From an uncultured bacterium (GTDB lineage Bacteria > Cyanobacteriota > Vampirovibrionia > Gastranaerophilales > Gastranaerophilaceae): a stretch of DNA of 42,913 nt. Numbering within the stretch: the stretch's first letter is position 1; every line of letters starts with the position of its first letter. The notes beneath the pieces were generated by a model, which saw only the letters and a program-made list of their open reading frames with translations, made no database searches and was not told the origin of the DNA. The stretch lies in the NCBI GenBank assembly GCA_902766105.1, contig CACXCI010000058.1, forward strand, positions 1-42,913, given 5' to 3'. Shown one piece after another: positions 2,679 to 27,515 of this stretch. Made by a program: the position numbers and the translations under genes.

Positions 2679-2750
2679 ACCCTCACCCGAATTTCAAAAT
2701 TTCGTCTAAACTTAATTTGAAATTCTACCCTCCCCCAAAGGTAGAGGGAG
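2679..2750 (+). repeat. Dispersed imperfect palindrome, family A, copy 1 (rplW-rplB gap)
   Basis: The element starts ACCCTCACCCGAATTTC and ends with CTACCCTCCCCCAAAGGTAG followed by AGGG. It holds an inverted repeat GAATTTC/GAAATTC and a second hairpin CTACC/GGTAG. It matches copy 2 at 3089-3158 almost base for base and resembles, in inverted orientation, sequences at 8359-8433, 16497-16531 and 26641-26710. Confidence 0.85.
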
Positions 2751-3088: not shown

Positions 3089-3158
3089 ACCCTCACCCGA
3101 ATTTCTAAATTTCGCATACGCTCGATTTGAAATTCTACCCTCTCCCAAAGGTAGAGGG
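3089..3158 (+). repeat. Dispersed imperfect palindrome, family A, copy 2 (rplD-rplW gap)
   Basis: The sequence starts ACCCTCACCCGAATTTCTAA and ends CTACCCTCTCCCAAAGGTAG followed by AGGG. It is in the same orientation as copy 1 on the other side of rplW and differs by only a few bases in the arms, with more differences in the central loop (CGCATACGCTCG versus CGTCTAAACTTAA). Confidence 0.85.
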
Positions 3159-3162
3159 GATA

Positions 3163-3789
3163 TTATGAAAGTCTTTCTGTGATTTCTTTTACAGAAGCTT
3201 CTGTCATAACAACAAAATCTGCTTCTAATAAATCTTTCACATTCAAGTTAGTTGGTAATAATAATTTTACGCTTGGAATATTTCTTGCAGAAAGCTCTAA
3301 GTTTTTATTTTCTTCAGCTTTTGTATCTGCAATAATTAAAACTTTTCCGCTAACGTTCAATGATTTCAATGCTGCAACCATCAATTTTGTTTTTGGTTGT
3401 TCTAATGTTGAAAAATCTTTAACGAAAACTAACTGAGATGCTCTTGCTGATAATGCTGATTTCAAAGCTAATTTTCTTGCTTTTTGAGGCATATTGAATG
3501 CGTAGCTTCTTGGTTTTGGTCCAAAAATTACGCCACCGCCTGCAAACAATGGAGAACGCAAAGATCCTGCTCTTGCACGACCTGTACCTTTTTGTTTCCA
3601 TGGTTTTCTTCCGCCGCCTGCAACTTCAGCTCTTGTTTTTGTACAAGCTGAACCTTGACGAGCGTTGTTTAATTGTCTTCTTAATGCTAAGTGCATTACG
3701 TGAATATTAGGTTCAACACCAAATACGTTTTTATCTAATGAGATTGTTCCTAATTTTTCACCGTTTGTATTTAATAATTCATTTGTCAT
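3163..3789 (-). CDS. rplD: 50S ribosomal protein L4
   Basis: A 208-residue protein of usual L4 length. The extended loop that enters the ribosome core is clear (TRAEVAGGGRKPWKQKGTGR then ARAGSLRSPLFAGGG, about residues 53-90). L4 lines the exit tunnel, and in E. coli it also represses its own operon through the S10 leader. The ATG has AAGGAAAAG upstream. The gap to rplC (3790-3965, 176 bases) is very wide for these two genes and is mostly a repeat element. Confidence 0.98.
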   Translation of the reverse strand: MTNELLNTNGEKLGTISLDKNVFGVEPNIHVMHLALRRQLNNARQGSACTKTRAEVAGGGRKPWKQKGTGRARAGSLRSPLFAGGGVIFGPKPRSYAFNMPQKARKLALKSALSARASQLVFVKDFSTLEQPKTKLMVAALKSLNVSGKVLIIADTKAEENKNLELSARNIPSVKLLLPTNLNVKDLLEADFVVMTEASVKEITERLS

Positions 3790-3848
3790 TTTTTCTTTTC
3801 CTTTTGCTTTCCGTCTACCCCTTTCTCATTTTGGAGTTTTATATGGTA

Positions 3849-3963
3849 GAAGCGGGTTATCTACTTGGAAGCTTGGAGGTCCGGATGTCAAGAGGTCAGG
3901 CTATTTACAAACTATTGAATTTTAACATACTTGCCTTCTTGTCTTCTGAACTCCTGCCTTCTG
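3849..3963 (-). repeat. Repeat family C, copy 1 (rplC-rplD gap)
   Basis: Read on the minus strand from 3961 it begins GAAGGCAGGAGTTCAGAAGA and later contains ATAGCCTGACCTCTTGACAT and CCGGACCTCC. The two ends are roughly complementary to each other, so the whole is an imperfect palindrome. The same sequence blocks, in the same order (GAAGGCAGGAG, GGCAAG, ATAGCCTGAC-TCTTGAC, GG-CCTC), recur at 5981-6060 inside the phosphohexomutase gene. Confidence 0.7.
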
Positions 3964-3965
3964 TA

Positions 3966-4601
3966 TTAGTTCCATTTAGTTCTTGTCGGAACGATTGTTA
4001 CCAATCTGCCTTCACATCCCGGTACTGAACCTTTTACCAATACCAAACCGTTATTAGCATCTACTTTAACTAATTTTAATTTAGTAATTGTAACTCTTTC
4101 GTTACCCATGTTACCTGCCATTCTTTTGCCTTTGATAACACGAGATGGAGTTGTACCTGCTCCGATTGAACCCGGTTCTCTGTGGTTTTTAGAACCGTGA
4201 GCCATTGGTCCTCTTCCAAAATTGTGTCTTTTTACTGTACCTTGGAAGCCTTTACCTATTGATTTACCGGTAACGTCAACTTTTTCTACGTTATCCAATA
4301 CTGAAAGTTCAACCTTATCTCCTACTTTGTAATCTTGAGGATTTTCTACACGAAATTCTTGTAGATGTCTGTAGTTAGATAAGCTGTTTTTCTTGAAATG
4401 ACCTATCTGAGCCTTTGTCAAGTGTTTTTCTTTTGCTGCTACAGTACCAACCTGGATAGCATTATATCCGTCAGTTTCAACAGTTTTAACTTGAGTAACA
4501 ACTGTTTCGTCAACTTTGATAACTGTTACAGGAATAGCCAAACCTTGTTCGTCAAAGATTTGAGTCATTCCGACTTTTTTTCCTATTACACCTAGTGTCA
4601 T
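3966..4601 (-). CDS. rplC: 50S ribosomal protein L3
   Basis: A 211-residue protein when started at MTLGVIGKKVGMTQIF, the family-typical N-terminus, with AGGAAAGG about 10 bases upstream; an in-frame ATG at 4655 would add 18 unconserved residues. Signature segments include TGKSIGKGFQGTVKRHNF, GPMAHGSKNHREPGSIG and GKRMAGNMGNERVTI. The central extension reaches the peptidyl transferase centre. L3 is one of the first proteins assembled on 23S rRNA. Gaps on both sides (206 bases to rpsJ, 176 to rplD) are wide and repeat-bearing. Confidence 0.98.
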   Translation of the reverse strand: MTLGVIGKKVGMTQIFDEQGLAIPVTVIKVDETVVTQVKTVETDGYNAIQVGTVAAKEKHLTKAQIGHFKKNSLSNYRHLQEFRVENPQDYKVGDKVELSVLDNVEKVDVTGKSIGKGFQGTVKRHNFGRGPMAHGSKNHREPGSIGAGTTPSRVIKGKRMAGNMGNERVTITKLKLVKVDANNGLVLVKGSVPGCEGRLVTIVPTRTKWN

Positions 4602-4807
4602 AATTTTTACCTTTCCTGCTCGTCCTACTTGATGCAGAATGCTTTTCTGCCTCATTTCGGAGTTGCATCTTTCTCTTGCGAGCGCTACTTTTACTAACTA
4701 ATTCTTTACCTTTGAAGGACTTTCACCTTCTCCCATATTATTATGGGTAGTAGATCACATTATATGCATAATGCTTATTCAATTTTCAATTACAGGAATC
4801 TTTGCAA

Positions 4808-5309: not shown

Positions 5310-6764
5310 TCAAATAAATTTTTTGATAGCTTCTATTTTTTCAGAACTGTCAGACTCCATATATATTCTCAATAGCGGTTCTGTTCCTGAGGGACGCACT
5401 AATACCCAAGATTTTTCATCCTCCAGATATAATTTCACACCATCTTTATAATCTTTTCTGATAATTTTCATGCCTGCAATTTCATCAAGAGATGAAAATT
5501 TTTCAATTGTTGGCTTAATTTCTTCTATATTTTCTAATTTCTTATCAACTCTTGTATTGATAAAAGAACAGCCGACAAAATCTGCCAAATCCTTTCTTAA
5601 TTGAACCAGTGTTTTATTTTCATAAGCCATGGCTTCCAAAATTAAAAGATTTGCCAAAATACCGTCTTTTTCGGGAATATGTCCTTGAATACTCAATCCG
5701 CCTGACTCTTCTCCTGCAATTATCGGATTGTATTTTCTCATTGCTTCGCCGACATGCTTAAAACCAACAGGTGTTTCAACAACTTCAACACCTAATTTTT
5801 GAGCAACAATGTCAAGCATCAAACTTGCGCCGACAGTTTTTACCAAACAGCCTGAGTAATTTTTATTTTTCTTCAAATGTGTTAAAAGTATTGCTATAAT
5901 CTCATTTGGAGTAACATAATCTCCGTTTTCATCAATCACTCCAAACCTATCGGCATCCCCGTCATTTGCAAAAGCAACAAAGAAGGCAGGAGAAGCGGAG
6001 GGCAGGGGGGCAAGCTCATTACCTTTTATAGCCTGACGTCTTGACCTCTCGGCCTCTTGATTTCTTTGTATAACATAATCAATAGCTTCACCCATATATT
6101 GTGGCTTAGGTTCAGGCATACCGCCGCCAAAATTTGTATCGTGATACATGTGAATACAATCATATTTTATATTATTATCGCTGAGCAATTTGTCAAAAAA
6201 GCCTATGCTTGATGAATATAAACCGTCAAACAAAATGTGAAAATTATTTGCACTGTCTTTTATCTTTGAAAAATCAATAATTTCTTTTATTCTTCTGAAA
6301 TACGCATTTGAAAAATCTGTTATAATTATTTTTCCTTTAATATTTGAACTGATATCTTTTCCGAAATTTGAAACAATTTCATCAGTAATTTCAGATGTTG
6401 CAGGACCGGCATAATCGGGAATAAATTTTATACCAAGATACTCAGGCGGATTGTGAGACGCTGTGAACATAACAGCACAAGCATCTAAGAGCTTTGCATT
6501 ATAAGCTAAAACGGGTGTTGGCAAAACCTTATCGCTGTACAAAACTTTAAAACCTATATCTTGTAATATTTTTGCACACTGGGTAGAAAATTCTTTTGCC
6601 ATATTGCGAGGATCATACCCTACAATTATAGTTTTATAAATTCCATAGTTATCAAAAACATATTTTCCAATTGCACGAGATACAATTGAAACGTTTTCTT
6701 CATTAAAATCTTTTCCTACAACAGCTCTCCAACCGTCTGTTCCAAATTTAATTGAATTTGACAT
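5310..6764 (-). CDS. Phosphoglucomutase/phosphomannomutase family protein with in-frame repeat insertion
   Basis: A 484-residue alpha-D-phosphohexomutase, interconverting sugar 1- and 6-phosphates in the cytoplasm. It opens with IKFGTDGWRAVVGKDF. The phosphoserine loop is TASHNP (S103), the metal loop DGDADR (268-273), the sugar loop GEESGG, and the phosphate loop RPSGTEP near the C-terminus. All key loops are intact. Residues about 236-262 (QEAERSRRQ... to ...PSASPAFF) are extra relative to what I expect between the N-PEP and DGDADR motifs and are encoded by a copy of repeat C (5981-6060). AAGGAGG lies 11 bases before the start, and the gene overlaps the upstream secreted-protein gene by 17 bases, so the two are probably co-transcribed. 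Substrate (glucose, mannose or glucosamine) cannot be decided. Confidence 0.93.
   Translation of the reverse strand: MSNSIKFGTDGWRAVVGKDFNEENVSIVSRAIGKYVFDNYGIYKTIIVGYDPRNMAKEFSTQCAKILQDIGFKVLYSDKVLPTPVLAYNAKLLDACAVMFTASHNPPEYLGIKFIPDYAGPATSEITDEIVSNFGKDISSNIKGKIIITDFSNAYFRRIKEIIDFSKIKDSANNFHILFDGLYSSSIGFFDKLLSDNNIKYDCIHMYHDTNFGGGMPEPKPQYMGEAIDYVIQRNQEAERSRRQAIKGNELAPLPSASPAFFVAFANDGDADRFGVIDENGDYVTPNEIIAILLTHLKKNKNYSGCLVKTVGASLMLDIVAQKLGVEVVETPVGFKHVGEAMRKYNPIIAGEESGGLSIQGHIPEKDGILANLLILEAMAYENKTLVQLRKDLADFVGCSFINTRVDKKLENIEEIKPTIEKFSSLDEIAGMKIIRKDYKDGVKLYLEDEKSWVLVRPSGTEPLLRIYMESDSSEKIEAIKKFI
5981..6060 (+). repeat. Repeat family C, copy 2, inside the phosphohexomutase coding sequence
   Basis: This 80-base block begins AGAAGGCAGGAGAAGCGGAG and contains GGCAGGGGGGCAAG and ATAGCCTGACGTCTTGACCT then CTCGGCCTC. 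It is visibly richer in G+C than the surrounding gene. The same ordered blocks appear in the rplC-rplD gap. Read as codons it is open and adds about 27 residues to the enzyme without a frameshift or stop. Confidence 0.7.
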
Positions 6765-27352: not shown

Positions 27353-27387
27353 TATTTACTCCATGATTTAAGTTATTAAGACTATAA

Positions 27388-27416
27388 GACGATAAGTCGT
27401 CAAGTTCTTTATCGTC
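27388..27416. repeat. Inverted repeat between nrdD and nrdG
   Basis: GACGATAA (27388-27395) and TTATCGTC (27409-27416) form a hairpin with an internal GTCGTC loop. A related ACGACTTAACAACTTATTGA stretch with the same words in inverted form lies at 27479-27498, just before the nrdD stop. Confidence 0.55.
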
Positions 27417-27515
27417 TATTAAGTGTTACATTTATTGCTTGATTTCAATATTAGCTTATTACACCTTATTGAACTTAACGACTTAACAACTTATTGACTT
27501 ATCATCTTAAAATTT

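Follow-up and report, generated by a model that had tools for sequence, protein, structure and literature searches.

The analyzed window, a stretch of 42,913 nucleotides, belongs to a 1.89 Mb genome in 110 contigs (G000) and carries, besides the ribosomal protein genes rplC and rplD, a phosphohexomutase gene hosting an insert within its reading frame. This insert is a copy of an octamer-phased dispersed palindromic repeat family, which we named R1. A second copy occupies the rplC-rplD spacer, and repeats of other sequence are also present (Table 1).

Table 1. Genes and repeats of the window (window coordinates).
Feature	Position	Strand	Basis and remarks
Phosphohexomutase, phosphoglucomutase/phosphomannomutase type, 484 aa, host of the insert	5310-6764	-	Pfam PGM_PMM domains I-IV; AlphaFold2 pLDDT 88.6, matches PDB 1tuo
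R1 copy inside the mutase gene, in frame, antisense; residues about 233-262	5980-6067	+	Intergenic-only model 49.6 bits, E 2.3e-9; absent from nine genus orthologues
Intergenic R1 copy, rplC-rplD spacer, in sense orientation relative to the operon, starting 2 nt after the stop codon of rplC	3865-3963	-	R1 family member by model
rplC, upstream of the intergenic R1 copy	3966-4655	-	ORF; named by comparison with relatives
rplD, downstream of the intergenic R1 copy	3163-3789	-	ORF; comparison with relatives
Family 2 dispersed repeat, rplW-rplB spacer	2679-2748		89% identical to 3089-3158; related sequence in the mutase loop of a sister species
Family 2 repeat, second copy, rplD-rplW spacer	3089-3158		89% identical to 2679-2748
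Palindrome of the same 8-bp phased design with another octamer (TAAGACG/GACTTAT type), between two ORFs	27367-27509		Architecture-only scan

An in-frame repeat in the mutase gene

The original prediction had placed about 27 extra residues (236-262), encoded by positions 5979-6060, in front of the DGDADR metal loop. Alignment with orthologues retained the in-frame insert at this place and corrected its extent to the one given in Table 1, with a net gain of 25 residues. The frame is open across the insert and the complete set of four Pfam family domains was found, in line with the predicted lack of stop codons and frameshifts. Neither nine mutases of the genus nor unrelated solved homologues, 1tuo among them, possess residues corresponding to the insert. 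According to an AlphaFold2 model based on 32 aligned mutases (pLDDT 88.6), the insert prolongs helix 220-248, which is followed by a low-confidence stretch and a strand (261-269); the insert block has a pLDDT of about 51 and residues 253-257 fall below 50. Mapped in this way, it lengthens the helix and then enters a loop modelled at low confidence, which fits a flexible loop. The added residues would be placed after the final helix of domain II and before the strand that runs into the metal loop, most likely leaving the enzyme functional. The insert region also contains the peptide SRRQAIKGNELAPLPSASPAFF.

The block shares ordered sequence parts with the rplC-rplD spacer. GAAGGCAGGAG is found at 5982-5992 (+) and 3951-3961 (-), and TAGCCTGAC[CG]TCTTGAC at 6029-6045 (+) and 3887-3903 (-). 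With up to three mismatches allowed, the latter pattern gave 0.13 matches in dinucleotide-preserving shuffles of the window, and two matches occurred in none of 100 shuffles. Genome-wide, the pattern TAGCCTGACNTCTTGAC (≤2 mismatches) was matched 17 times as opposed to zero times in the reversed control. A first covariance model yielded 53 matches, which correspond to about 27 distinct places after merging the strands of each palindrome; this count comes from scoring 150 of 1,720 first-look candidates, so that copies may have been missed. Since the training set of this model included the mutase and leuS copies, a second model was built from 12 intergenic copies only. It matched the copies in the mutase (49.6 bits, E 2.3e-9), leuS (69.3 bits) and pflA (47.7 bits) as well as the mutase copy of a second genome of the genus, G015 (46.3 bits), and had no match in the ribosomal regions (~100 kb) of G008, G002, G016, G013, and G018. 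The mutase block is therefore confirmed as a member of a dispersed palindromic repeat inserted in frame, as originally proposed. Neither of the two outcomes named at the outset as refuting it, identical residues in unrelated homologues or a lack of other genomic copies, occurred. That the block is instead a variable loop native to the enzyme, resembling the repeat by chance, would be conceivable from the varying loop length among relatives, but is highly improbable considering the match to the intergenic-only model, the shuffling result and the presence of the same family in two other genes.

Three copies in G000 lie wholly inside reading frames, namely those of the mutase (484 aa), leucyl-tRNA synthetase (leuS, 851 aa) and pyruvate formate-lyase activating enzyme (pflA, 295 aa). 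The remaining ones are mostly intergenic, often right behind a stop codon, and many are located in ribosomal-protein operons. At one locus (L149; C32:69772-70104), four copies are arranged head to tail with a spacing of 75-83 nt.

The shared blocks had initially been assigned to the entire gap at 3849-3963. Positions 3849-3864 turned out to be part of a separate conserved motif just upstream of rplD (3801-3864; CCCGCTTCTACCATATAAAAC...GAAAGGGGTAGACGG), present in varied but alike versions in all compared relatives; it is a candidate ribosomal-protein leader with no Rfam match at the gathering score. Positions 4656-4807 belong to an rpsJ-rplC spacer region of about 200 nt conserved across the genus (GTAGCGCTCGCAAG...GATGCAA), whose length and conservation suggest a structured RNA. 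The window as a whole had no Rfam match at the gathering score, with weak matches at a relaxed threshold only. Two of these, to whalefall-1 RNA (24.4 and 21 bits at the relaxed threshold; gathering score 37), appear to coincide with the family 2 repeats. No similarity to phage or plasmid records was detected at E 0.1.

Architecture, placement and distribution of R1

R1 copies are 79-124 bp long, and both arms consist of 8-bp phased units with the profile A[AG]GANGNC (ARGANGNC). At lag 8, the base identity reaches 0.65 and 0.64 in the two arms, whereas all remaining lags between 1 and 15 give 0.19-0.37. Over 45 copies, the mean folding z was -2.5 for the modelled strand and -3.3 for the other strand (60 shuffles each). 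The ends often read TAGAAGG...CTTCTAA, yet they are variable and a target duplication is not consistent among copies; with ends this variable, a miniature element with TA target (MITE) is not favoured. An architecture-only scan using no R1 sequence revealed one further palindrome in the window (Table 1), while ten Markov-resampled controls gave no hit. The scan was run with thresholds fixed a single time and overlooks many R1 copies, including the two in the window.

Within co-directional spacers, the distance from the stop codon of the preceding gene to the start of R1 is usually no more than 4 nt; the first three letters of several copies are the TAG stop itself. Compared with uniform placement in 23 spacers, this proximity gave Fisher p values of 6e-8 and 7e-6 for two genomes, which are rough and not to be leaned on: the gaps were entered by hand with overlaps set to zero, several distances to the next gene were estimated, and sites common to both genomes are not independent. 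The rpsQ-rplN pair of G015, the copies upstream of rpsB and rplJ, one rpmJ copy and others without a clear upstream gene or start were omitted, and these omissions favour the effect because most of the omitted copies are not 0-4 nt from a stop codon. An excess of sense orientation (21 of 24 copies, p 3e-4) is a hand count subject to the same limits. In G015, an R1-like copy (L231:14175-14275; C12:57674-57774) overlaps the 3' end of an upstream gene, whose stop codon and C-terminal residues it may provide.

A first survey of 18 other genus members detected R1 in G015, besides one weak match in G017. Extension to 286 genomes of the order, performed with the first model and thus with coding copies in the training set, found R1 in 26 genomes from seven genera, the majority belonging to one neighbouring genus with copies in the same ribosomal spacers. 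Four intergenic copies shared by G000 and G015 are 94-97% identical, while the measured coding flanks reach 81-89% (rplN 88.8% and rplX 81.2%, both beside one of the four); the other shared R1 sites are more diverged. G008, the sister of G000, lacks R1 copies. The higher identity of the four copies relative to the measured flanks looks like selection or exchange and not like neutral drift; recombination or selection could account for it.

Part of these data would suit R1 being a functional mRNA element of the operons, e.g., a post-stop hairpin for stability, processing or coupling, that is maintained by selection and whose in-frame copies are by-products of its spread. The tendency to start 0-4 nt behind stop codons with the rough Fisher values above, the prevailing sense orientation, the negative folding z on both strands, the recurrence at the same ribosomal spacers in another genus and the high identity of the four orthologous intergenic copies all speak in its favour. 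Nevertheless, R1 is absent from most species of the genus, the same spacers are elsewhere filled by other repeats or by none, and RNA folding predicts, on average, a more stable hairpin for the antisense strand, so that we regard such a role as possible, albeit rather unlikely.

G194, a genome close to G015, provided a view on the turnover of these elements. In G015, R1-type elements fill both the rpsD-rpoA and the rpoA-rplQ spacers; G194 has another octamer palindrome there, although the intervening rpoA is 100% identical over its first and 98% over its last 100 nt. The rplN-rplX elements differ as well; here the S10 operons (L266 and L291) consist of blocks with 97.6, 99.1, and 88.6% identity, and these unequal blocks mean that an imported segment suffices as explanation. 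The identity blocks are suggestive of recombination within the ribosomal-protein operon region. Because the elements around rpoA switch octamer family next to near-identical gene ends, octamer-phased palindromes might also form a distinct class of elements at fixed sites (post-stop spacers and enzyme loops) that are exchanged as units. We consider this doubtful; if true, elements would be replaced by a hitherto undescribed process that is either site-specific or element-bounded.

Occupants of the same enzyme loops in related genomes

Among named genome records, 80 mutase loci were retrieved, and the titles of many of them read Melainabacteria or Gastranaerophilales. Within the genus, the mutase site is empty in 9 of 17 genomes and likewise in the incomplete sequence of G005. 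G015 carries R1 at the insert site, and the mutases of G008, G002, G004, G016, G017, and G012 contain other inserts starting with HN[SNT]P-x-x-LG. The DNA of the G008 insert resembles the CCCTCTACCTTTGGGAGAGGG repeat that is present twice in the window (family 2, Table 1). Four genus members (L172, L173, L175, L176) have inserts of the SLAPSGRGSEGEG or NNISPCPLGE type at a second mutase insertion site, which follows EAMAY.

An in-frame R1 copy at the mutase site in front of the DGDADR loop is also found in the assembly of G194, 92% identical to that of G015 within a block of 97.6% identity; a greater drift of the copy than of its surroundings is as expected for weak constraint. An artefact of assembly or binning might be considered for a metagenome-assembled genome of 110 contigs, but has next to no probability in view of the corresponding copies in these two other assemblies and the open frame.

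In leucyl-tRNA synthetase, the loop after KVVI has at least four unlike occupants in the genus and is empty in some orthologues, the non-R1 inserts being CHCEEERSDD, PLPQGAR, and NDEILKQVQND. The solved homologue 1h3n has no residues corresponding to the insert; this loop was assessed by alignment with the solved homologue only (pLDDT of the structure model 40). An insert near residue 730 of the G015 enzyme is itself a dispersed repeat, with 89% identity over 64 nt to two other places in that genome; a second close copy of the CHCEEERSDD sequence was found neither in G008 nor in G016. The PflA loop is occupied by R1 in G000 and by a different insert in G015; G005 has the G015-type insert twice in tandem, and eight other genomes have none (alternative inserts: SLVGEGAVVCEG); the G015 insert has no second close copy in its own genome. 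The same sites are hence empty in some relatives and filled with unlike sequences, some of them other repeats, in others, which points to permissive landing sites.

Several independent insertions have to be weighed against a single ancient insertion into the mutase loop that diverged into the present inserts. The alike HN[SNT]P-x-x-LG starts mean that the inserts of these six genus members can share one origin, and a similar debate exists for the Rickettsia elements RPE-4/6/7 (PMC3767692). However, the R1-bearing G000 and G015 do not group together, as a tree of leucyl-tRNA synthetase and mutase places G000 as sister to G008 (support 0.993), the holder of the other insert. Furthermore, the two R1 mutase copies are 69% identical, which is no more than paralogues, and the LeuRS loop alone has at least four unlike occupants. 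A single insertion is thus unlikely.

Probable spread of R1 and comparison with known elements

As a whole, the data are very likely best explained by a small octamer-array palindrome that has spread in the genome and is tolerated in spacers and enzyme loops. The pattern would be fitted best by a non-autonomous palindrome that spreads and is afterwards purged by selection from positions where it is harmful. Copies would reach new places by means of a putative mobiliser and persist where they do little harm, i.e., right behind stop codons in operon spacers or, given a suitable length and frame, in the flexible loops of conserved enzymes. We infer that R1 is mobile and nearly neutral. A Y1 (RAYT-type) transposase was rejected as mobiliser: three are encoded in G000 and none in the R1-bearing G015, G194, G132, G055, and G253.

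Rickettsia palindromic elements (RPEs; Ogata et al. 2000) are dispersed palindromes of about 100-150 bp, some of which are inserted into conserved enzymes, in frame and at exposed places (PMC3767692, PMC10969869, PMC2229807). Some groups include different types located at, or close to, one and the same site; where different RPE groups share a site, the R. japonica genome paper considered both hot spots and a single insertion that diverged (PMC3767692). An RPE-bearing guanylate kinase is active with altered substrate affinity (PMC2229807). R1 is likewise a multi-copy palindrome (about 27 copies), slightly shorter than typical RPEs, and is found in frame in the conserved mutase, leuS and pflA, in the mutase at a loop that was modelled with low confidence and may be exposed. 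It differs in its Gastranaerophilales/Melainabacteria-type host and in the 8-bp phased arrays of its arms. The resemblance drawn at the outset is accordingly supported as a likeness of behaviour (palindromic, dispersed, in frame in conserved enzymes). The accompanying statement that such repeats are poorly known outside Rickettsia and Wolbachia was too strong, given that in-frame fusions have been reported for ERIC and Correia elements (PMC2229807, PMC10969869).

With the MITEs of the ERIC and Correia/NEMIS types (PMC2229807), R1 has in common the small size, the mostly intergenic location and the in-frame fusions. R1 resides in other hosts and has neither a consistent terminal TA duplication nor, in a search for the Y1 family, a recognised transposase. 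REP elements with RAYT transposases (PMC3733652) are intergenic palindromes too, but are 20-40 bp long compared with about 90 bp for R1, which shows no consistent GTAG or CGTC at the listed ends. The lack of the Y1 transposase in several R1-bearing genomes further separates R1 from the REP/RAYT system. Very small mobile repeated elements of cyanobacteria, reportedly described by Elhai et al. in 2008 (cited in PMC3733652), are also small dispersed repeats, in the wider cyanobacterial lineage. A full-text search of open-licence papers returned nothing on point for such repeats in Melainabacteria or Gastranaerophilales.

In-frame repeats outside Rickettsiales having already been reported for ERIC and Correia, the novelty is the host group, the 8-bp architecture and the finding that different repeats occupy identical loops and spacers. 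R1 in frame in several essential enzyme genes, together with unlike inserts in the same loops of relatives, indicates that protein-inserting repeats of the Rickettsia type also exist well outside Rickettsia. A gut lineage of the cyanobacterial phylum, of which many relatives have been sequenced, is thereby added to the hosts of protein-inserting palindromic repeats. As empty, R1-filled, and otherwise filled versions of the loops coexist in one genus, the question raised in Rickettsia, whether such sites are hot spots or reflect one diverged insertion and whether the inserts are neutral or useful, becomes directly testable in three enzymes.
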